In this document: piece after piece, positions 50,601 through 63,573 of the stretch | Layout: the number at the start of each line of letters is the position of its first letter | How positions within the stretch are numbered: the stretch's first letter is position 1 | Source of the DNA: Tribonema minus | Taxonomy: Eukaryota > Sar > Xanthophyceae > Tribonematales > Tribonemataceae | Length of the DNA stretch: 64,000 nucleotides | Reading direction: 5' to 3' | Assembly: GCA_017506865.1 (NCBI GenBank) | Contig: JAFCMP010000180.1 | Location: forward strand, 1 to 64,000 | The notes under the pieces: generated by a model | Told to the model about the DNA's origin: nothing | Databases searched by the model: none | Seen by the model: only the letters and a program-made list of their open reading frames with translations | Position numbers and translations under genes: made by a program

Positions 50601-53600
50601 TAGAAACTTCACTCACAAGCGTCTGCAGCCGCTGCAGCTCCTCCTCCATGGACGGATCCAACACATATACAACAGAGCGTCCGCTGCCGCTGCCGCCGCC
50701 GCCGCCGCCGCTGCCGCTGCCGAGCCCCCAGTCGGCGTCGCGCGCCGCGGGACCCTCCCGTGCCTCCGCCAGCTTCCGCCGCAGGTGCTCGACCTCCGCC
50801 ATGAGCTGCTGCACCATGGGGTCGCCGCTGCCGACCCTGGCTTGCTGCAGTTGCGGGGCGCGAACGGAAGGGGGGGGGGGCACCTGTGCTGAGCGCTGTT
50901 GCAGGCGGCGAAGTGCGCGGCGGTGAAGTGCGCGGCGCGCGTAGGCAGCAGGCATGCCGCGCGTGTCACGAGAGCGATCGCGCCTCCTCGCGTGCGCTGC
51001 AGACGTCCCGTCGACGCCTGCCGCCGCTGCCAGAGCGAGAGAAGCGGCGGCCCGAAGCATGCACTCCGTGAAGGCGCCGCGTGCACAGACGACCCTGGCC
51101 CTCCGGGCAAATCACAAGCGTGGCCGCACAGCGCAACGCGCCGTGCCATCTACAACTTGCAGTTGTTCCGGGACTGCGTGTGCGCGCGCGCCCCCTCACC
51201 TCATTCACACGCGCGTGCGTGCGCACTGCCTTGGCGCGCTCCGCGTACTTGAGCGTGCTCAGCGTCTCCTCAAAATGCGCCGCCGCAGGCGAGACGCACG
51301 CGAGCACGACCGTGCGCGCGTTGCCGCCGAGGCTCTCGCGCAGCAGCCGCGTCAGCGCGCTGTTGCGGTACGGCACGAACGCCGCCGCCGCCGCCGCGGC
51401 GCCGCCGCCGGCCGACGGCGTCAGCGGCGGCTGAGCCGCGCTGCCGCCCTTGCGCTGCGCCTCGCTCAGGGCCTGGGACGCGGATGAGAATTGCGCAGAC
51501 GCGTTTGATGCGTGCGTTACAGCCAGGGTTGGGGGGGGGTGATGCGCAATGAAATCAGCAGGCAAGTGGCGCACGTGGCAGCGGCGCGGCAGCCGCAAGA
51601 GCTGCGCGAACATGAGCGCCTGTTGCTGCGCGCGCCCACTGCAGCGGTTGCGCACGGCCTGTCGCAACGTAACGAGCGGTTGCCTACCAGCCTTGTTACT
51701 GTATGCCGCCTAACGTGGGCATGGAGGTGACCACAGCGGCAAAAGACCGACGTCAGTCGTGTGCTGCCAGAAGCGAATGCACCACGGCCCCTGTCCGCTG
51801 GCAAGTGCCTGCCGTAATCGCCCCGGGCAACGTGACGGCAGCGCCATACAACCGCCATCAGGCCACAGGACTGAGGACTGCTGCTTGGCGGGCGCACATA
51901 CCAATGCCACGAACGACAACCGCCCCGGTGCTCTCACACACACAAATCTCCCTGCTGGTCACTGTGATGAATGATGCGCCTGCGATGCCGACTGAAGCAG
52001 GTACGCGAATGCTGTACATACAGTGAAAACGCGGGCACTCATGCATACATACCTTGATGCGGCTGCAGTTGGTGCTGGGGGCACGCCGCGGGCACGCACC
52101 CCAACCCTCAAACTTGAAGTAAGACCTCACCATGCTCTACGCCTGCATACACAACTCACTGCCAGGTCACAGCACTGAGCACAATCGCTTGGCGGCAGGT
52201 GCACGCCGCGAGCGACCGCAACTGCCGACGCGCACCCAGCGTCCGTACAAGGCTTCCTGTCCTTCACTGCGAGGAACGACGCACGTGCGATGTCAATTGA
52301 AGCAGTTTCGTGAGTGTTGGATATACAATCATACCTTCATGCGGTTGCAGCTGGTGCTGGGGCAGCCGCGCGCCTCAAACCTCAAACTTCAAGTAAAACT
52401 TCAACTCGCTCCACGCCTACACACGTAGAGCTCGTGCGACCCACCTTGATGACATCGCTCAGCGCGGCCAGGGAGCGGTTGATGCTGCCCGCCTCGCGCA
52501 GCCGCAGGCCCGCCGCGCCCGTGTTGCCCACGCGCTCCGACCCCGCGAGGTCCACCAGGTTCAGCCGCGAGACCTGGCGCCACGCGGACATGCAGCGCGG
52601 GCACGGGAGTCAACTTGTGGAACTTGATGTCACGCAGCGGCGGCGCGGCGGCGGCGCGCGCGGCGGCGCACGCGATGCAGAGTGCTGCCCAGCAATCGAG
52701 GCTCGCAGCGACATCGAGCCTCTGCACTGCAACCGTCACCGTAAACCTAAGCGCGTCTCCGACCCTTCGAGGTCCACCAGGTTCAGCCGCGAGACCTGGT
52801 ACAGCACCGAGTGGACGCGCAACGCAGCACGGGAGTGAATGCGTTGCGCGGCGGCGACGCGTGCAGCGCCGCCCAGCTATCGAAGCCCGCGGCGAGACCA
52901 AGCCTCCGCACTGCAGCCCTAACCCTAACCTATGCGCGGCTGCCTCCTCCACACGGCGAGCCAGCACCGGGGCGAGACCTGCCGCCACGCGGACACGCAG
53001 AGCGGCACGGGAGCAAACGCTTGTTGCGTGCCGGCGCGCCGCAGTGCTGCGCTGCAGAGAGCAGGCTGCGGGAGGTCGAGCGCTGACTCGTGGCCGCACT
53101 CGTGCTGCGTGGGGAGGGAATTGCTGCTGCCAGCGGCATCGAAAACCTGCGCCCGTGCGCGCGCGCCGGGGTGCGCTGTGCAGCCATTGATGCCGTTGGG
53201 ACGAGCGTTGGGGTTGCGAGCATGCTTCCAATGCCCTGAGGCAGTGACGGCGCCGCCTCGCAGGCACCGACCCGAGGCGGCCGCCCCACGCCCGGCGCTC
53301 GCAACGGCGCATGCGCCGGCTTAGGGTTAGTTTCAAGACACCGAGCGGCCGCACCGCAGCGCCATCACGCGCTGGCGAACACAGCGTCGCGTCGCGTAGA
53401 GGCGGTGCTCTTTGATGGGCGGACCGAGAGGCGGCGCTGGTTCTTGCTCAGCCGGCAGCGCCGCAGTGCGCGTCACGCAGGCACATGGTGTACGGTCGGA
53501 CGACTGTCGGCGGATAGGCACTAAAGTTAGGTGAACGTAACCCCGAAGCATCACCACCGCCGTCGCCTCCACAGCGGCTCGCAGACTGCTGCTGCCGGTC

Positions 53601-56600
53601 CGCCGTTGTGCATCGCGTGCAACCAGTCGACGCGATGACGCATCACGACACGACGCATGCGTTCTGGTCCCTGCCCTAACCTTACCCCCAGTGCTCAACC
53701 ACCACCCTCTGCTGCCTTCATTAGCCGCTGCTCCGAACGGCGTCACCGAGGAGCACATGAATCACAGCAAAAATGGGTGCGGCACTGCTCGCCTTCTCAT
53801 GCACGGGCCCGCTGGCCGCGCCGCCGCCGCGCTGCTGCCGGAACGTCACTGTGAAGATGGCGTGGCTGCGAGAGCTGTAGGCGTTCGCGTTGGTGGTCGC
53901 AACCGTGCGCGCCTGCGCTCCGAACGCGATCAGCCGAGCGATCTGCTCCAGCGATGTAGGGGGCGTGGGACGCAGGGGTTGGGGGCAAGGTCGGTGAGTC
54001 ACCACTGCCAATTTATGAAACTTCAACATGAACGTTGGCAACACAAACGTAAGCGTAGGTGGTCGCGACCGTGCGCGCCCGAACTCCAAACGCAATCAGC
54101 CGCGCGATCTGCACCAGCGATGTAGGGGGCGTGGGACGAGGGGCGTGGGACGGGGGCAGGGTTAATGACCCACCAATGGTGATTTATACAACAACTTAAG
54201 AACGAATGCTGGCAGCGCAAACGTAAATGTTGGTGGTTGCGGCCGTGCGCGCCTGCGCGCCGAACGCGATCAGCCACACGGTCTGCGCCAGCGGTGTGGG
54301 GGGCGTGCGACTGGGGGGGGAGGGGGGGGCAAGGTTGGTGAGTCACAACTGCCAGTTTTTGAAACCTCAACATGCACGCTGGCAGCACGAACGTGAACCG
54401 TTTGTGGTCGCAAGCAGTGGTGCGCGCTTGTGCGCCGATCACGATCAGCCGCGCGATCTGCACCGGCAGTGCGGGGGATGGCGGGGACGCGGGTGGGGTG
54501 GGGTGACTCACTGCTGGCAGCAATGTGGTGACCTCAAACATCGATGCTGGCAGCAAGCATGAGCGGCAGCGCGAGGCGCAGGCTGCTGCAGCCGAGACGG
54601 GTGCGGTGCACGTCCGTGCCGCCGTGCGCACGGCGCGCAGTCAGAAGCACCATGTGGATGTTCGCCGCAGCGTCCAGACACAGGAGCTTACCTCAACTTC
54701 AACCGCCAACCTCCAAGAACTGACCGGCGACCAACATGCGGCCGAGCGCAGACCATCGTGCCTGTAACACATCCACGCATACCTCGGAGCATACAAAAAA
54801 CTGCTGAAGTGGGTCCGCGCGTCACTCCACCTTCACCCTTACCTAACCCTAACCCTGGCCGAGGTGCCCCGCGCCAACCAGCTGCGCCAACGAAGCCGCT
54901 GCGACGGAGCACTTACTTCGCCAATCATCGGTTGCTTTACTGGAAATGTTTGGCCACAATCACGAGCGCACAGGCAACACTCACCACATCATCAGATGTG
55001 TTACCGTACCTCGATGGAATAGGTGATGTAGGGTTGCGGTTAGGTCTAAGGCGTGGGTTAGGGGTAGGTATAGAAGTACACTGTGTACCTCATCGTAGCT
55101 GGTGACGGACACCACGGCGAGGCCTTCGACGTACGCTCCGTACGCGAGGTCCTCGCGCACAGGCAACAACCACCACATCATTGAATGTATTACCTCCTCC
55201 TCCTTCAAATGTCCTGCCAAATTGTGGGCGCACAGGCAACAATCACCACATCGTTTTAAATGTGTCACCTCATCGTAGCTGGTGACGGACACCACGGCGA
55301 GGCCTTCGACATACGCTCCGTATGCAGGGTCTTCGCGCACGCGCAGCGTTGGCGGCGCGCGCCCCGGCGCCGCCTGCGGCCCGAACAGGTCCCTGACCTG
55401 CTCATTGTAGATTTCGAGGTAGCTCACCTGCTCCGCCGCGAGCGCAGGGAACGGAGGGGGGGGGGGCTGAGTGTTTGTAAATGAAATGAAAGGGGGGTGA
55501 GCATGGAGCGTCGGCCCATTACTTCTATTTGATGAGGGTGAGCAGGGCGGTCAGGTGGGGCACCTGCACTCGGGGGCGGCGCGCGCGCAAGGGGGCAGCG
55601 GCAGCACTCGCGGATCCTTCTGCGCCAGCGTGCTCTGCAGCAGCGCGCTCTCGCACACAGCTCTTGCTGCAGCGCTCAGATGCTGCCAGTTCCGCGGAAG
55701 GTACGCTCCACGGTGGGTGGGGCAAACACGGAGCAATGAGAGGGAGGGCGGGGCGCACGGGAGCCCCAGCGTCAGCGCTCGGCGGGGCGGCGGGGCGAGC
55801 GCTGAGGCGCTCCGGGCAGCGGCGAGCAGCGGGCATGGAGCATCACCATCAGCGTCCGCTGCTGCTGCAGGCCAAGGTGATGTGGGCATCCCGCCCGCGG
55901 CACACGGACACACTTGGGACTGTAGTGTGCGCATCAGCTCGAATCATGGGGAGATGGCCTGCGCGACGCGCAGCCGCGCGGCGGAGCGCGCCAGCGCGGC
56001 GGAGCGCGCCAGCGCAGCGGTGCAGGCGGCGCTGCCAGCAGGTGGAGGGGGGGGGCGGGGGCAGGCAGCAGGTGCGGAGCGCTGGGCGGACGGCGGCACA
56101 TGCTGAGCACTGACGGCCGTGCATGCTGGGCACTGACATGGCAGCTGTGCGTGTTCCAGTTGAGCGCTGCCTCGCACGCGGACGCCGTGGCGACGTGCAC
56201 AACTGCAGCACCCGCGCATCGTGCCGCCTGGGAGCGCTTCGACGCCATCGACGCGGAGGGTTCGCAGGCTTGCGTTCGAAGAGCCGCAGCCTGCCCCAAT
56301 GCTGATGCAGCAGCACGCCGGCGGGCGGTGCGCGACCGCAGTTCGCTGCCCAGAGCGTGGCTTTCCAGCTTGAAGCTAAACTGCGTGCCGTACCACATGA
56401 CGTGATAGCGGAGGCGCCGCGAGGTCGCGCACGGGGTCCCGACCCCCAGCTGCGACGGCAAGGACGGCTGGAGGCTCGCGAGAACTGTGACACCTGCTGT
56501 GATACCAAAATACATACAATCACCCCCCACACACATGCCCATGCAGCAGGCCCCAGAAGCATTCCATTTGGCTACGCCTACGCCACGCGTGCATTTTGGC

Positions 56601-58284
56601 CGTCCCTCGCGCATGCAGCACTGCGCCGGTGCAAGCAGCGGCGGCACTGCTCCAGTGAAAAGGACTACTGTAGAGTCAGGGCCAGTGGTGATGAAGCTCC
56701 GATATGCAGGCAGCAGTGCTCACCTCCACCCCAAAGCTGAGTTCTGCGCCGTCGCCGCCGCCGTCGCAGCGCGTGGCCTCCGCGATTTCCGCAAAGAGGC
56801 TCTCGCAGATGCGCGGGATCAGCCCGTCCTCCTCGTCGCCCGCGTCTGCCTGAGCGATGCGACGCTCCTTAGGATTAGAATTTGGATCGGAAGTGAGGAC
56901 CGTCTGCCTGAGCTCTGGCGCTCAGGAAACGTCGCCACGCACGGCGGGCAGATGAGACAGGAGGGTATGGTGACGAGAAAACCAGCTGCTGCCAGTGGCT
57001 TTTCTTGAATGCCTTGAGCCTCCAGCTTCTCCGTTGGCGTGAGGGCACAATCGTGATCAGTGCCAATCTCATGCATTGAACGCTTTAATGACCCCGACCA
57101 TGTGCAACCACACAAGTCATCAGTGCTCAAAGGCATTTATTACCATTCCTGTGACTGATCCAGCTGTGCTCAGGTCATTTGCCTTCATCAGATTTGTGAT
57201 CAACATGTGTTGTAGTAAAGTTAAAGTAAACTTGAAGTTGGGACTGTCCGCACCTGGCTGCGGTGGACAGGCTCCAGCCCCATCATAGAATACGACTTGC
57301 CGCTCCCCGTCTGCCCGTACGCCAGTATCGTGCAGTTGTAGCCCTGCCACGCCTGCTCCAGAGCGCGCGCTCCAATGAACTTGTACACCTGCGTGAGTGA
57401 AGAGCGCGCAAGGGAGATGCGCGCTGTCACCTGAGGGTGAACCACGGTGCAGTGAATGCATGTACTTCGAAGTATACACTGAAGCCAAGTTGCTACTTAG
57501 AGCTGACGCACTACGCTGCCCGGAGCATACGGCTGCAGTGGCGCGTCAAATGGAGTTGGCGACCGCAGGCACACATGCAAGTGCCAACGGGACTGTTGCT
57601 TTTGAGAAGCGCCGTGCTCACTGCATGTTGCCATCAGTTCACGTCATGCACTGAAAAACACTGGCGCGACAGTGCTGGAGCAATGCGGCAGTGCTGCATG
57701 GATGCTGCATGCCGACAACGCAAGGTTCAACTGTACCTCATTTTGACCGCTGTAGTGCGGGTCCTCAATGTTAGCGCTCCAGAAGCAGTGGTCAAACGTG
57801 AAGTGCCGCGCCCAGGCGTTGATGTCCAGGGTCTGGCCGCTGTCCCTGGCTACTGCCGCCGCTGCTCCAAATGCTGTGGGGTCCACGAGCACGCAGCTGT
57901 TGCCCTCCACCGATATGATGGTCTGAGTGCCCGTGTACTCCTCGCTTGGCAGCACAGGCCGCACCCGGACGCACACCTGGGGAGAATCACGTTGTTACAG
58001 TTGCAGTTATTCAGACCTTTCTCCTCGTGTGTAGCAGTATGAGCGCAGCGCGTAGCACTTGCAGTGAATTGTTCAAGTACGGTAGCAGCAGCTAGCTGGC
58101 TGCTTGCTTGTTCACACCCCTGACTCACCTGTATGTTGTCGCCCTGCTTGCCATTGGCAGCACACGGGGAACCCGGCAGGGGTGACGGGCCTCTGCTGCT
58201 GATGCTGGCGGTACTGCCTCGCAGAGAGCTGGCGCGCAGAGACTGGACATGGCTGCTACGGCGAGGGCTCGACGACCAGCTCAT
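46216..58284 (-). CDS. Kinesin-3 family motor with FHA domain, 14 exons
   Basis: Proposed exons (minus): 58284-58129, 57976-57737, 57388-57254, 56849-56724, 55427-55269, 53942-53793, 52573-52445, 51472-51200, 50844-50617, 50253-49901, 49355-48989, 48584-48508, 47812-47548, 47199-46216; about 1213 aa, phases consistent. It is an ATP-driven microtubule motor. Visible motor motifs: [10 protein letters not shown] (start), [15 protein letters not shown] (P-loop, about residue 156), [21 protein letters not shown] (switch I, about 295), [10 protein letters not shown] (switch II, about 328) and [16 protein letters not shown]. After a neck coiled coil, [17 protein letters not shown] begins an FHA domain (about 610-745: [26 protein letters not shown]) and WEFAHNELL follows, as in KIF1/KIF13-type kinesins. 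The tail is Gln/Pro/Ala-rich; no PH domain is seen, so cargo binding is unclear. Exon 6 probably ends at a GC donor. Confidence 0.88.
49721..49765 (-). repeat. Duplicated end of kinesin exon 10 with donor site, inside intron 10
   Basis: Copies the coding end (gacgccaacgtccagctctg versus gacgccgacatccagctctg) and the following donor, here GTAAGT, in the true exon GTGAGT at 49900. Confidence 0.8.
52760..53015 (-). repeat. Copies of the start of kinesin exon 7 inside intron 6
   Basis: At 52760-52800 the exon-7 start with acceptor recurs (gaggtccaccaggttcagcc, gcgagac|ctgg). The adjoining intron piece recurs again at 52963-53015 (gcgagacctgccgccacgcg). The copies lie upstream of the true exon on the coding strand. 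Confidence 0.7.
53892..54475 (-). repeat. Four tandem units of about 170 bp carrying the start of kinesin exon 6
   Basis: The exon-6 acceptor and start (aaccgtgcgcgcctgcgctc, cgaacgcgatcagccg) at 53892-53945 recurs at about 54058, 54232 and 54400. Units keep the CAG acceptor region in varying condition. The true exon is the one that continues into the switch I motif. Confidence 0.8.
55098..55160 (-). repeat. Duplicated end of kinesin exon 5 with donor, inside intron 5
   Basis: Matches 55267-55335 (ctcatcgtagctggtgacgg, acaccacggcgaggccttcg). On the coding strand it lies downstream of exon 5 and ends in a GTACAC donor instead of GTGACA. Confidence 0.85.
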
Positions 58285-58976
58285 GAGTGCCTTCGCCTCA
58301 TCTCAGTACATCAACTTACAGTTCACGTGTGCCTTTGGCGTTGCGCTTGTTGCTGTTATTCAAATGCTGACCAGCTTTGAGCGCAGGAGCGCAAGCACAG
58401 CCTCGGCTATTTCCTCTAGAGGTAGGTACACAAACACACACACTGAATACACACCAACTGGCAGGCCAACGGCCCAAGTTCCCTAGGGTTTGAAGTTTAC
58501 TTTGCGCGCTTCTCAAAATCGAATTTGCAGGCCTGCAGGAGGCAGGCGAGGCTCACGCTGCAGGCGACCCCTGCCGCAGCTGTTTTGGCGCGTCGGAGCG
58601 GTTTGAGAAGGGAAGCAGCGGCGCCAGCTTCACAGGGCGAGGCGAAAGCACGGAAAGTGAACTTTGAGAGAGATCAGGCAATCTTGCAATTTTGGCACCT
58701 CGTTGCGCACATGCCGAAAACGACACGCAGGACCGGCGCCAGCCCGCCCATGCCTCAGCCGCAACCACGCTGTGCTCAGGGCATGCGGCTGCACAGAGAG
58801 TTAAGCATTCCAGAAGGGTCGGGGAGCCCGGAATGCAACACTTCGCCCAGAGCCTGCACCCCGTCGTCGGCGGGCACAGCTCTCATGCTGAGGTAAGCAA
58901 AGTCATCATGGGCCAGTGCGAAACGACTTTCGGTGTCAGCGATTTCTTCATCTCGAGATCGTCTGACGGCGTGCCG
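58285..58976. promoter_or_regulatory. Divergent region between kinesin and the F-box-CDK-cyclin gene
   Basis: Contains the kinesin 5' end and, on the plus strand, possibly an upstream exon of the next gene: ATG at 58711 opens a frame that ends at a strong donor (CTGAG|GTAAGC at 58892). I could not connect it with certainty. Confidence 0.35.
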
Positions 58977-61900
58977 ATCCTGCCCTCAGCGCTCCTGCTG
59001 CATGCATGTTGCACATTAAACCCCGAATGCAAGCCGTTAAAGTTGACGGACATCATGTTGACCTTGGCTTCGTCCCTGCGCCGTGACTGCTAGAACCAGG
59101 CCGCAATGCTCGCCGGCCGAAGGTGCACGCAAGCGAGGACGGCGGTCGACAGCGCGACCCCATCCCCGAACTGTGACCGCCAGAGGCACCCCGGCGGAAC
59201 TGCTCATTGCAGATGCGATCCTGCAACAGGTGCGTTACTGCGACGGACTCGCTGTGCATTGCATCGCCACTGCTATTAATTTCCCGATGCATGTGCTTGA
59301 GCCTCGAGAGCAACGGCTTCTTGCTTCTGTAATCAACTTTAGGAAGGTCAAGGGCAACTTTTTGATGCACGCGGTCGCAAGGCCGAATCTACGCCAACAC
59401 TGTCTACAACCTCGTGGTGCGGTGCGCAGGTTTTCTCCTTCTTTGTGAACCAGCATGGCGTGGATGAGGAGGAGGTGCACGTGGCGAAGCAGGTGTGCCG
59501 GCGGTGGCGGGACACGCTCGGGAGTGCGACGCTGCTGTGGCGTGACGTGCCATGGGAGCTGCCGGGAAGGGGGTTGAATTGGGCGCGCTTTGAGTGCTTG
59601 GGAAAGAAGGCCTCTGGTACAGAGGGAATATGCTTCAGGTGCCGGGATCGCGCCACTGGCAGGGAGCTGGCGCTGAAGAAGGTAAGCCTATGTCGAGGTC
59701 AGATGACTCAAAGTCATTGAAAAGGCGCACCACGTATCCGAAAGCAACTACGCTGCTGCACAGCCACCGCAGCGTAGACCGTGCAGATATCGCTCAACGT
59801 CAACTACGGCCTGAGCTGTCAGATGCTAACGGAGCAGCTCGCAGCAAAGTTCAAGAGGTTCGGAGCCACCGTTGGCGAATTGCGTAATCTCATGGTACAC
59901 TCTGTGAACTCGATACAAGCTGTGCGACCAATTGGTGCACGCAATCCTGCTGCATTACTAGTGCTCTACGTACAGCTTGAACATGCCTGATGATAAATTG
60001 GGCCATGACGCCAACTTGGCACAAGGGCCGGCGTTACCAAGTTGCCCGCCATGGTCTCCCCAAAGCTGTACGACATGGATGGGCTGAGGCGCAGCATGGT
60101 GCTGGCAGCACACAGCACACGCGCAAAAGCGTTGCAAGGCCTGGCCTGTAATCAGAATGCCACTAATGTTGAAAAAGCGTTGCACATGACCATATGGTTG
60201 TCGCCGGTGAAAGGTGTGCCTGGGCGCCTCTTGAATCCCCGCGCGTGTGTACTATCGTGGCGGTGCCAAGTCAGAACGCTATTGAGAACGTGTCTAATGT
60301 GCACGGCTTAGCAGCTGGCTGGGTCTCAACTTGCATGTGCCCTTCGCACCTGTGGTCTGCGCTCACGGAACCCAGCGGTAACACGTAGAGCATTGCTCAC
60401 TCCGTTGCGGAAATGCCATTGCAGAAAAACAGCGCATTCGCATTCAGTGTAACGCAAAACCTGCAACAGCGCAACATTGCACAGGTGTCGACGTTGGACA
60501 GGAATGCTGCATGACAATGAAGCTTGAAAGCGCATACCGCCTCCATCACCCGCGAACGCCACCGCTGCCCTGCAAGCTGGCTGCGACCATGCCGCACCGT
60601 ACGCTGCGGTCACGTTGTTGCAGCGCGTACGCGCATCCCAGCTCCCCATTCCACGGGCGCTCCCTCGATGTGACGATTTCGGCGATGCTCATCGCACATG
60701 CCCCCCCCCCCCCCTGCACAGGCGCGCGTCTACCCGCAGGGCGAGGGCGTCCCCTACTACATGCTGCGCGAGCTGGCGGTGCTCCGCGACCTGCGCCACC
60801 CCAACGTCTCGCGCCTGCGGCACGTCTCCCTGCACGACCACCAGCTGCGCGTCTTCTTTGACTTTGTGCCGCAAACGCTGCACGACTTCATCAACCCGCC
60901 GGCGGCGGCGGCTGCGGCAGCGCACAGCAGCGGCGGCGGCGGCGGCGACGCTTTGTTTGCGCTGATGCTAGGGGATGCGGCGGCTGCGGCGGCGGAAGGA
61001 GAGGGGGGGTACGAGGCTGCTGCTGCGGCGGCGGCAGCAGCGGCGGAGGCGGACGCGGCGGCGGCGGCGGCGGCAGCGCATGAGCCCCCAGGCAGCCCTT
61101 CCAGCTCGGGCACGGCGCAGCGGCCGACGCCGGTGCCGCAGCGCCACCTGCAGCCGCTGCTGCGGCAGCTGCTGCTCGCCGTGGCGGCGTGCCACCGGCG
61201 CGGCGTGCTGCACCGCAATCTGAAGCCGAAGCACGTGCTCGTGCGGCCGCGGGAGGGCGCGGCGGCTGCGGGGGGCGCGGCGGGCGGCGACGCGCTCGCG
61301 GGCGCGCACCTGCTGCTCAGCGACTTTGCGCTGGTGCGGCTCGCGTCGTATCCGCGGCGCGCGTACACGAGCGAGGTGGTGACCCTCTGGTACAGGTACG
61401 TGCCGACTGGCTGCCTGTGGCGTCTTGCGTCTGTGCTGATGGCAGCAGTCGTGCGCAGCGCGCCGCCCGGTGCTGTGCGTGGCCAGGCCACCAGCAGCAT
61501 GAGGCGTGGGGCGGCCTGAATTCTTGTGCTGTTGCGTAGCTCGTTGTTGAGTGCTGTTGCGTGCAGCCTAGCGGATGAGCAGCGATGCGTTGTGAGCTGT
61601 TTTGGATGTGACCAGTCCTTGCGGTGTTGACGCCAGTCGTCTGCCGCACCCCGAAGGTGCGCCCCACCCACGTTTGCTCTGTTGCAGGCACGCTGACAAC
61701 CCTTGTCGCGCTGCCGCTCTGCTCGGCCCTGGTAGCGCTGCTGAGATGCTGCACATCCATTCCATTTTATCATGGAAATCTCATGCGCCATCCACCCGGC
61801 CTCCGGCTGCCGCAGCGCAGCTCCGCTGCAACTCCGACCACACACCCCTTCCCCACCCGCCCTTCCCCCCACACACCGTAACTGCCGCGAAACCGCCGCC

Positions 61901-63573
61901 GCCGCAGGCCGCCGGAGCTCCTCATGGGCGCCGAGAAGTACACGCCCGCGGTCGACATGTGGTCCGCGGGCTGCATCTTTGCGGAGATGGCGCTCGGGCG
62001 GCCGCTGTTCACGGGCATCAGCGAGATCGACCAGCTGTTCCAGATCTTCAGCAGGCTCGGCACGCCCGACGCGCGCGCGTGGCCCGACTTCACGGCGCTG
62101 CCCAACTACTCGTTCGCGTTCCCGCACTGGGGCCTGCGGGTGAGCGCCGCCGCCGCCGCCGTGCCGAGCGCTGCTGCTGCAGCGGCCAGCGCGTACCGAT
62201 TCGCACTGCCTGCTGCAGCGTAAAGTGGAGACTGTTTTCCGCGTGCGGGTCGGCCGTACTCGCCGCAGGGTCGGGGCGCTGCTGCAGCCAGCGCGCTGCA
62301 GTCCGCTGTCTGCTGCGGCATCCAGCGGAGTCCACTTTCCTCAGTGGCGGCTCAGCCATGGTCGCCGCAGTAGAGGATCAGCGCTACAGCCGCGGCCGCT
62401 TCAGGCGCTGCCGATCTACTTGATCACATCCCGAGGGCTGAGCTGACATTGACTGCTGCTGCTGCTGCGCCTGCCGGCGCGCTGCTGAGCTGTGCCAATG
62501 CGGCGTTGCTGCCCGCCGCTGCGACAGAGGGTGGCGGAACGGCGGCTCATCACGCTGCCTCGCGGAGCGCTGGGCACTGGCTGTGCTATGCCGCTGCATC
62601 GCAGTTCTCGAGGGTGCTTCTGGAAATGTTGGCAGCCGTAGGTCGACAGCCTTCATTGACCTGGCGCTGCCCCCCCTCTGCTGTCCTTGTACTGACACGG
62701 GCTGTGTGGTGTAGCGCCAGAAAGCGCGTGATGGCCGGTTCTGTGGAGGGAACAGCAGCCCGATGTCAAGGGCGCAGCGTGCAACTAGCCCCTGTGCAGG
62801 CTGCAGCGCTCAACTCGCTTCCCTGCATGCCTGCGGAGCGAGCTCTCATGCACGTCACTTCCAGAGCCAACGCTGCGCCGCTGCCGCCGCCGCGCCCCCC
62901 CCCCCCCCCTCCGCTCGCAGAACCTGCAGTCCGCATTCCCGACGCTGGAGCCGCGCGCAGTGGACCTGCTCGATCGAATGTTTACCTATGACCCAGCGCG
63001 CCGCATCACCGCGGAGGAGGCGTTGCGACACCCGTACCTCATCGACGCCGACGTGCCAGTGCTCCGCTGCTGCCGCCGCCGCCGCCGCCTCGCCGCCGCC
63101 GCTGCGCATGCCGCCGGCAGCGGAAGCGACGGCGGCGGCGGCGGCAGCAGCAGCAGCAGCGGCAGCGACGATGATCAATTCAGCGACAGCGACAGCAGCT
63201 GCGACAGCGAAGCCGGCGGCGGCAACAGTTCAGCGGCGGCAGCAGCGGCGGCGGCGGCGCCGCTGCTGTCACGCGGCCCCAGCCAGGACCTGCTCACAAT
63301 GCGGCGGCCGCCGGCGCGCCTGCGCGTGCCCGAGGGGTGCAGCGAGGGGGCCGTGCTGTACGTGCGGCACCTGCATCGGGTGCAGGCGCGTTTGGCAGCA
63401 TCGACGGCGGCGACGGCAGCAGCGATGGGTGGTCATGGTGGTGGCGGCGGCGGCGGCGGTCCAGCGCTGCGGCCCGACCACCGCAGCATGCTGGTGGACT
63501 GGCTGGTGGAGGTCGTGGACGTGTTTGAGATGTGTCAGCGCTCGGCGTTTCTGGCGGTCGCGCATATGGACAG
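58977..63573 (+). CDS. F-box - CDK-type kinase - cyclin fusion protein (3' end beyond window)
   Basis: Proposed exons: 58977-59003 (tentative; upstream start unresolved), 59430-59681, 60722-61395, 61908-62139, 62921-63573, phases consistent. The N-terminus reads as an F-box (LPSALLLH, then VFSFF and VAKQVCRRWRDTL...LWRDV), the Skp1-binding module of SCF ubiquitin ligases. Then comes a CDK-like kinase: SGTEGICFRC (Gly loop), ALKK (ATP Lys), PYYMLRE in place of PSTAIRE, LHRNLKPKHVLV in place of HRD, SDFALVR in place of DFG, YTSEVVTLWYR (T-loop) and PPELLMGAEKYTPAVDMWSAGC. An Ala/Gly-rich insert of about 80 residues precedes helix E. The kinase C-lobe (DPARRITAEEALRHPYL) and a cyclin-box start (RSMLVDWLVEVVDVFEMCQR...LAVAHMDR) lie in the same uninterrupted exon. 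HRD-to-HRN removes the usual catalytic base, so activity is doubtful. Confidence 0.8.

Follow-up and report, generated by a model that had tools for sequence, protein, structure and literature searches.

An F-box, a CDK-type kinase domain with replaced active-site residues and a cyclin in one gene of Tribonema minus: a candidate SCF receptor in a stramenopile protein family

The xanthophyte Tribonema minus (Stramenopiles) carries a gene whose predicted product joins, in this order, an F-box, a CDK-type kinase domain, a cyclin box and a cyclin C-terminal domain. The kinase domain is probably catalytically dead, as judged from its active-site residues, and belongs to a family in which those residues have been replaced in the same way. 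We favour, with moderate confidence, the reading that the protein is a substrate receptor of an SCF ubiquitin ligase, in which a pseudo-CDK permanently bound by its own cyclin would serve as a binding surface and not as a kinase. The domain parts, their order, the replacement of residues and the spread of the family are strongly supported, being observed directly; docking of the kinase and cyclin in cis, binding of Skp1 and recruitment of substrates by the ligase are what we infer beyond these.

The gene lies on the forward strand at 58711-66534 of a contig of 109941 bases. The window, by which we mean the whole stretch of 64,000 nucleotides that was analysed, covers bases 1-64000 of this contig, and the last four of ten exons (64130-64259, 64587-64652, 65252-65569 and 66139-66534) lie past its end. 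The preliminary description had placed the feature at 58977-63573, an extent that falls inside the gene but is too short, the gene running from further upstream to beyond the window. All nine introns are GT-AG, the exon phases fit, and the predicted product has 1010 aa. Exon 1 (58711-58892), with the start ATG, a low-complexity N-terminus and the donor GTAAGC, is the least certain, having been placed by frame and phase rather than by homology. Exon 2 (59100-59229), whose phases fit, provides a basic stretch and the first F-box helix, and exon 3 (59430-59681) the remainder of the F-box together with the Gly-loop region (GTEG) and the beta-3 Lys, so that half of the F-box and the Gly-loop region do share an exon, as had been proposed. 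Exon 4 (60722-61395) holds the PYYMLRE helix, the HRN and DFA motifs, the T-loop and an Ala-rich insert, and exon 5 (61908-62139) the kinase C-lobe. Exon 6 (62921-63573) continues as one open frame from the end of the C-lobe through a low-complexity linker into the start of the cyclin box (MLVDWLVEVVDVF..., 63488-63573), bearing out the earlier claim that both ends of the kinase-cyclin join lie in one exon.

A partial NCBI model of the locus, P0001 (616 aa), is likewise a fusion, beginning within the F-box and ending within the cyclin C-terminal domain; relative to it the ten-exon model gains the first F-box helix and a VIRKRY tail common to many relatives. Long GC-rich in-frame repeats at 60880-61100 and 63060-63470 encode Ala/Gly-rich inserts in the kinase domain and the linker, parts of which P0001 omits. 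Since the gene crosses such low-complexity GC-rich sequence, an error of gene modelling or assembly that joined two neighbours has to be weighed. We consider this very improbable: the join lies within one exon, the kinase precedes the cyclin in all 89 fused proteins that could be read, three MMETSP transcripts with this order are marked complete (P0060, P0070 and P0072), and four kinase-cyclin fusions of Phytophthora infestans were checked by RT-PCR according to the available part of a 2010 paper (PMC3019232). A chance or false fusion was rejected on these grounds.

Elsewhere in the genome the best candidates listed for the F-box-kinase part reach no more than 67% similarity, and this in short segments, so that the gene appears to be single-copy. 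It stands head to head with a kinesin motor gene, the exons of which occupy about 51000-58290 of the window on the reverse strand (Pfam Kinesin was found in three of five pieces tested), with about 430 bases separating the apparent starts. Four TTAGGG units occur in the intron after exon 9 (contig 65589-65639). Upstream of the start codon, an E2F-like TTTGGCGC is present at 58584; it was set aside as no evidence because the motif is rarer in the window than expected (10 occurrences against a mean of 17.5).

On the 1010-aa model Pfam recognizes Pkinase (1.7e-42), Cyclin_N (3.7e-29) and Cyclin_C (1.7e-11) above their cut-offs, whereas F-box-like, at 22.5 bits, falls just below its cut-off of 24.3; of the three profiles that the preliminary description had suggested for a search, Pkinase and Cyclin_N are thus clear and the F-box is borderline. 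Exon 2 matters for the F-box-like score, which is 24.1 bits when this exon is included and 13.7 bits when it is left out. A profile built from the F-boxes of 47 relatives, Tribonema being left out, gives the Tribonema F-box 54.9 bits, while the highest score reached by any of 200 shuffles is 0.9 and by any of eight control kinases 3.5. In a set of 47 relatives, at E 0.01, Pkinase and Cyclin_N are found in all, Cyclin_C in 43 and F-box-like in 31, the remaining 16 having no F-box-like match at this threshold. The predicted model P0003 places helices at residues 45-56, 67-74 and 78-84 of this region, so that sequence and modelled helical fold both point to an F-box, and matches to Skp1 are present in the T. 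minus genome. That the F-box, the CDK-type kinase fold and the cyclin belong to a single polypeptide, as proposed, is in this way upheld by the gene model, Pfam, the predicted model and the family profile together.

What the preliminary description overlooked is that the kinase looks dead. It had imagined a self-contained cell-cycle module, a view that, in the sense of a working kinase, finds no support in the sequence, as replacements affect the catalytic Asp, the Asn that binds Mg and the Gly of DFG. CDK2 provides the reference for these positions, with its catalytic base, Mg-binding residue, Wee1 site and T-loop phosphate clasp. Where an active CDK would have HRD, the Mg-binding Asn and DFG, the T. 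minus sequence reads HRNLKPKH (61211-61234; D127 to Asn and N132 to His) and DFA (61322-61330; G147 to Ala), and GTEG (59616-59627) puts Glu at the place of Tyr15. Among 98 fused proteins aligned to CDK2, with rows gapped at a site excluded from its denominator, these changes are present in every readable case: Y15E in 90 of 90, D127N in 89 of 89, N132H in 90 of 90 and G147A in 94 of 94; V18 is Cys in 83 of 90. The surrounding scaffold is kept, with K33 in 88 of 91 (the other three have Arg), E51 in 89 of 90, D145 in 94 of 94, and the T-loop Thr at T160 (61367-61369 in T. minus) in 92 of 92, along with R50 (90/90), R126 (89/89) and R150 (93/93). Of the 148 proteins collected, 100 have the YYM.RE helix, and HRD is absent from every one of these. 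Eight CDK-related loci of T. minus itself were compared, and all six in which both motifs are readable have HRD and DFG; the other two, L022 and L024, have no readable motif pair.

The pattern is not fully invariant. Six relatives (P0127, P0143 and P0145-P0148) have DFS, not DFA, while keeping HRN and GTEG; they have no Pfam cyclin match, lie outside the 98, and are possibly fragments or a kinase-only branch. In Phytophthora, P0112 and P0115 show GSEG, DFALAR and KPRH or KLRH variants, yet retain HRN, and these two, with P0043 and P0044, are additional, longer-branched copies.

It could be argued that the domain is a kinase of low or unusual activity, the Asn of HRN and the His of KPKH still permitting transfer and the fused cyclin making it constitutive. 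The beta-3 Lys, alpha-C Glu and DFG Asp are kept, so ATP may bind, and ErbB3 has HRN with weak activity. We nevertheless regard this as quite improbable, because three catalytic or metal-binding positions have been replaced jointly in all readable fused rows. A decaying kinase would be expected to vary at active-site positions, whereas the fused family is fixed there, and identical changes in distant relatives suggest a binding platform rather than an enzyme.

The cyclin part looks fit to hold a CDK. The motif SK[CTM]ED, with the CDK-contact Lys, occurs in 93 of the 98 fused proteins; among these 93, from which the further cyclin counts are taken, Glu295 (cyclin A numbering) is present in 86 of 91 readable, and T. 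minus retains both Lys266 and Glu295. The docking groove is partly kept, W217, E220 and Q254 each being retained in 78 of 93, with M210 mostly replaced by His, I213 mostly by Met and I281 mostly by Cys. Predicted structures are consistent with this: AlphaFold models of two whole multi-domain chains are compact and confident (pTM 0.89 and 0.87), and fold searches match the kinase part to CDK2 and the cyclin part to cyclin A. The Foldseek and VIA rows listed are matches to the kinase and cyclin, and of the 50 Foldseek rows listed for the kinase part, 47 come from entries with a cyclin or Spy1/Speedy in the title. Read together, the pTM values and fold matches suggest that the kinase and cyclin may dock in cis.

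The same residues could also serve a decoy or inhibitor that titrates its partners, either a true CDK captured in trans by the cyclin or CDK regulators captured by the pseudo-CDK, with the F-box acting mainly to have the protein itself destroyed at a given cell-cycle stage. The kept CDK-contact residues of the cyclin would suit such a role, as would the kept T-loop Thr and Arg triad, which could offer a binding site to CKS or a CDK-activating kinase; the T. minus genome has CDK-type kinases with HRD and DFG as well as CKS matches, and a role of the cyclin in regulating protein stability has been suggested as a possibility (PMC3019232, available part). We hold this reading to be unlikely, though less so than residual kinase activity, as the high pTM suggests that the cyclin would already be occupied in cis.

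Searching related genomes for the same domain order, as had been recommended, showed that it recurs in oomycetes, in a labyrinthulid and in other ochrophytes. At least 98 proteins carry kinase and cyclin, these being the ones with precomputed Pkinase and Cyclin_N matches among the 148 (one source listing gives 120 of 440), and 47 of the 98 also have a Pfam F-box; the 98 rows are kin to one another and rich in oomycetes, and hence are not independent observations. The fifty proteins without a cyclin match were left out and include true CDKs, plant kinases and fragments; HRN is present in 23 of them, six of these being the DFS proteins. The kinase precedes the cyclin in 89 of the 98, P0001 among them, and follows it in none, nine being unreadable by motifs. 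The architecture is found in many oomycetes, in two brown algae (Choristocarpus and Discosporangium), in Chrysoparadoxa and Phaeothamnion, in the labyrinthulid Hondaea, and also in many environmental and transcript sequences. The names of Ectocarpus, Saccharina and diatoms are absent among the matches listed (120 of 440, with many rows unlabelled), and losses of the family in some lineages are likely.

A tree was made of 50 rows, and in it every group with a label (12 oomycete rows, five ochrophyte, two labyrinthulid) forms one side of a branch with support 99; the other 31 rows have no group label and include two outgroup CDKs and P0122. The labyrinthulid group is represented by Hondaea only, since its second row, P0113, labelled Durusdinium, was assigned by hand. 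Two apparent members from outside the stramenopiles, P0113 of Durusdinium trenchii and P0122 of Batrachochytrium salamandrivorans, sit among labyrinthulid-side rows, probably as contaminants of the assemblies concerned. The P. infestans protein P0112 falls inside the family and apart from the outgroup CDKs, and P0115 is in the family listing. As far as these sequences tell, the family tree follows the organisms, and it is simplest to suppose that the family arose once, before the labelled groups separated; recent gain in Tribonema was rejected because relatives lie in three stramenopile groups. In a profile search favouring divergent members, with a threshold of E 1e-10, 78 proteins were listed, their E-values leaving a gap between 1.7e-133 and 3.2e-46; no ciliate or apicomplexan names occur among those 78, many rows of which are unlabelled, in a search that needs shared five-residue words.

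We return to the SCF receptor as our preferred reading because the catalytic sites are replaced while the scaffold and the CDK-contact residues of the cyclin are kept. The cyclin would act in cis, holding the kinase domain in an active-like conformation incapable of phosphate transfer, and with Glu at the place of Tyr15 the pseudo-CDK could not be switched there by Wee1 and Cdc25. The F-box would hang this fixed CDK-cyclin surface on Skp1-cullin, and substrates or partners of CDK-cyclin, such as cyclin-groove ligands and T-loop or CKS-type partners, would be brought to the ubiquitin ligase. In favour of this we count the pTM values, the CDK2 and cyclin A fold matches, the F-box-like match, the tree and the genomic Skp1 matches; against it, the borderline Pfam score of the F-box, the partly kept cyclin groove and the six DFS relatives. 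More tentatively, and with less than even confidence, we propose that the family is an ancestral stramenopile SCF receptor: a dead CDK, permanently held by its own cyclin and bearing a phosphomimic at the place of Tyr15, in which the CDK-cyclin surface, released from catalysis and from control by Wee1 and Cdc25, reads substrates. If this is true, a CDK-cyclin complex has been kept for binding, and tied to protein destruction, from oomycetes to algae to labyrinthulids, raising the question of how cell-cycle control here compares with the textbook scheme of animals and yeast. As a single chain, the protein allows direct tests of pseudo-CDK function, and a method for transforming T. minus has reportedly been published (PMC7139823).

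The 2010 paper on kinase-cyclin fusions in P. infestans is reportedly the work of Judelson and Ah-Fong. In its available part it describes an Asp to Asn change in subdomain VIb, suggests that the fusions are inactive, and reports that relatives occur in two ciliates, in Theileria and in oomycetes besides P. infestans, and that they are absent from two diatoms (PMC3019232); the preliminary description was thus correct in recalling oomycete CDK-cyclin fusions. The T. minus protein resembles these fusions in the order of its parts, the CDK kinase domain standing ahead of Cyclin_N and Cyclin_C, and in having the HRD Asp changed to Asn (HRN, 61211-61219), and it groups with the P. infestans protein P0112. 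The kinase-cyclin fusion and the catalytic Asn are therefore already known. The term F-box has no match in the available main text of PMC3019232 and is not in its Table 2, and, unlike the family described here, no ochrophyte or labyrinthulid relatives are named there. No description of the three-domain protein was found in the available portions of open-licence PMC full text, including those of PMC2872877, PMC3038932 and PMC6170502. Databases already label the F-box (Pfam) and name it in some fusion entries, and as regards databases the earlier statement that no such fusion with an F-box was known is incorrect: entries for Achlya hypogyna and Thraustotheca clavata are titled "cyclin-dependent kinase with F-box domain". 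What the present analysis adds is the F-box as a shared feature, the further changes fixed at the active site, the conservation of the scaffold, and the members from ochrophytes and labyrinthulids.

Other known systems share parts of this design. Tetrahymena CYC13 and a fusion from Eufolliculina likewise join a cyclin to a CDK in one gene, the N-terminal 35% of CYC13 having no recognised similarity according to the available part of that source (PMC3143110). Cyclin F (CCNF), an SCF receptor, combines F-box and cyclin in a single chain as in Tribonema, and the role proposed here is comparable. To our knowledge, cyclin F has no kinase domain. The Tribonema protein departs from the cyclin F layout in that a kinase domain sits between the two shared parts; at the sites of the family's CDK-contact Lys and Glu, human cyclin F carries Arg and Met instead. 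In a cyclin tree 17 family cyclin boxes form one group with 100/100 support, and a sister relation to cyclin F receives p-AU 0.445 on a long branch, a value that neither favours nor dismisses it; a cyclin F into which a kinase was inserted is thus a candidate origin. CDK2-cyclin A differs in consisting of two chains, with an intact active site and no F-box, whereas in Tribonema all parts lie in one chain around a kinase domain whose active site has been replaced.
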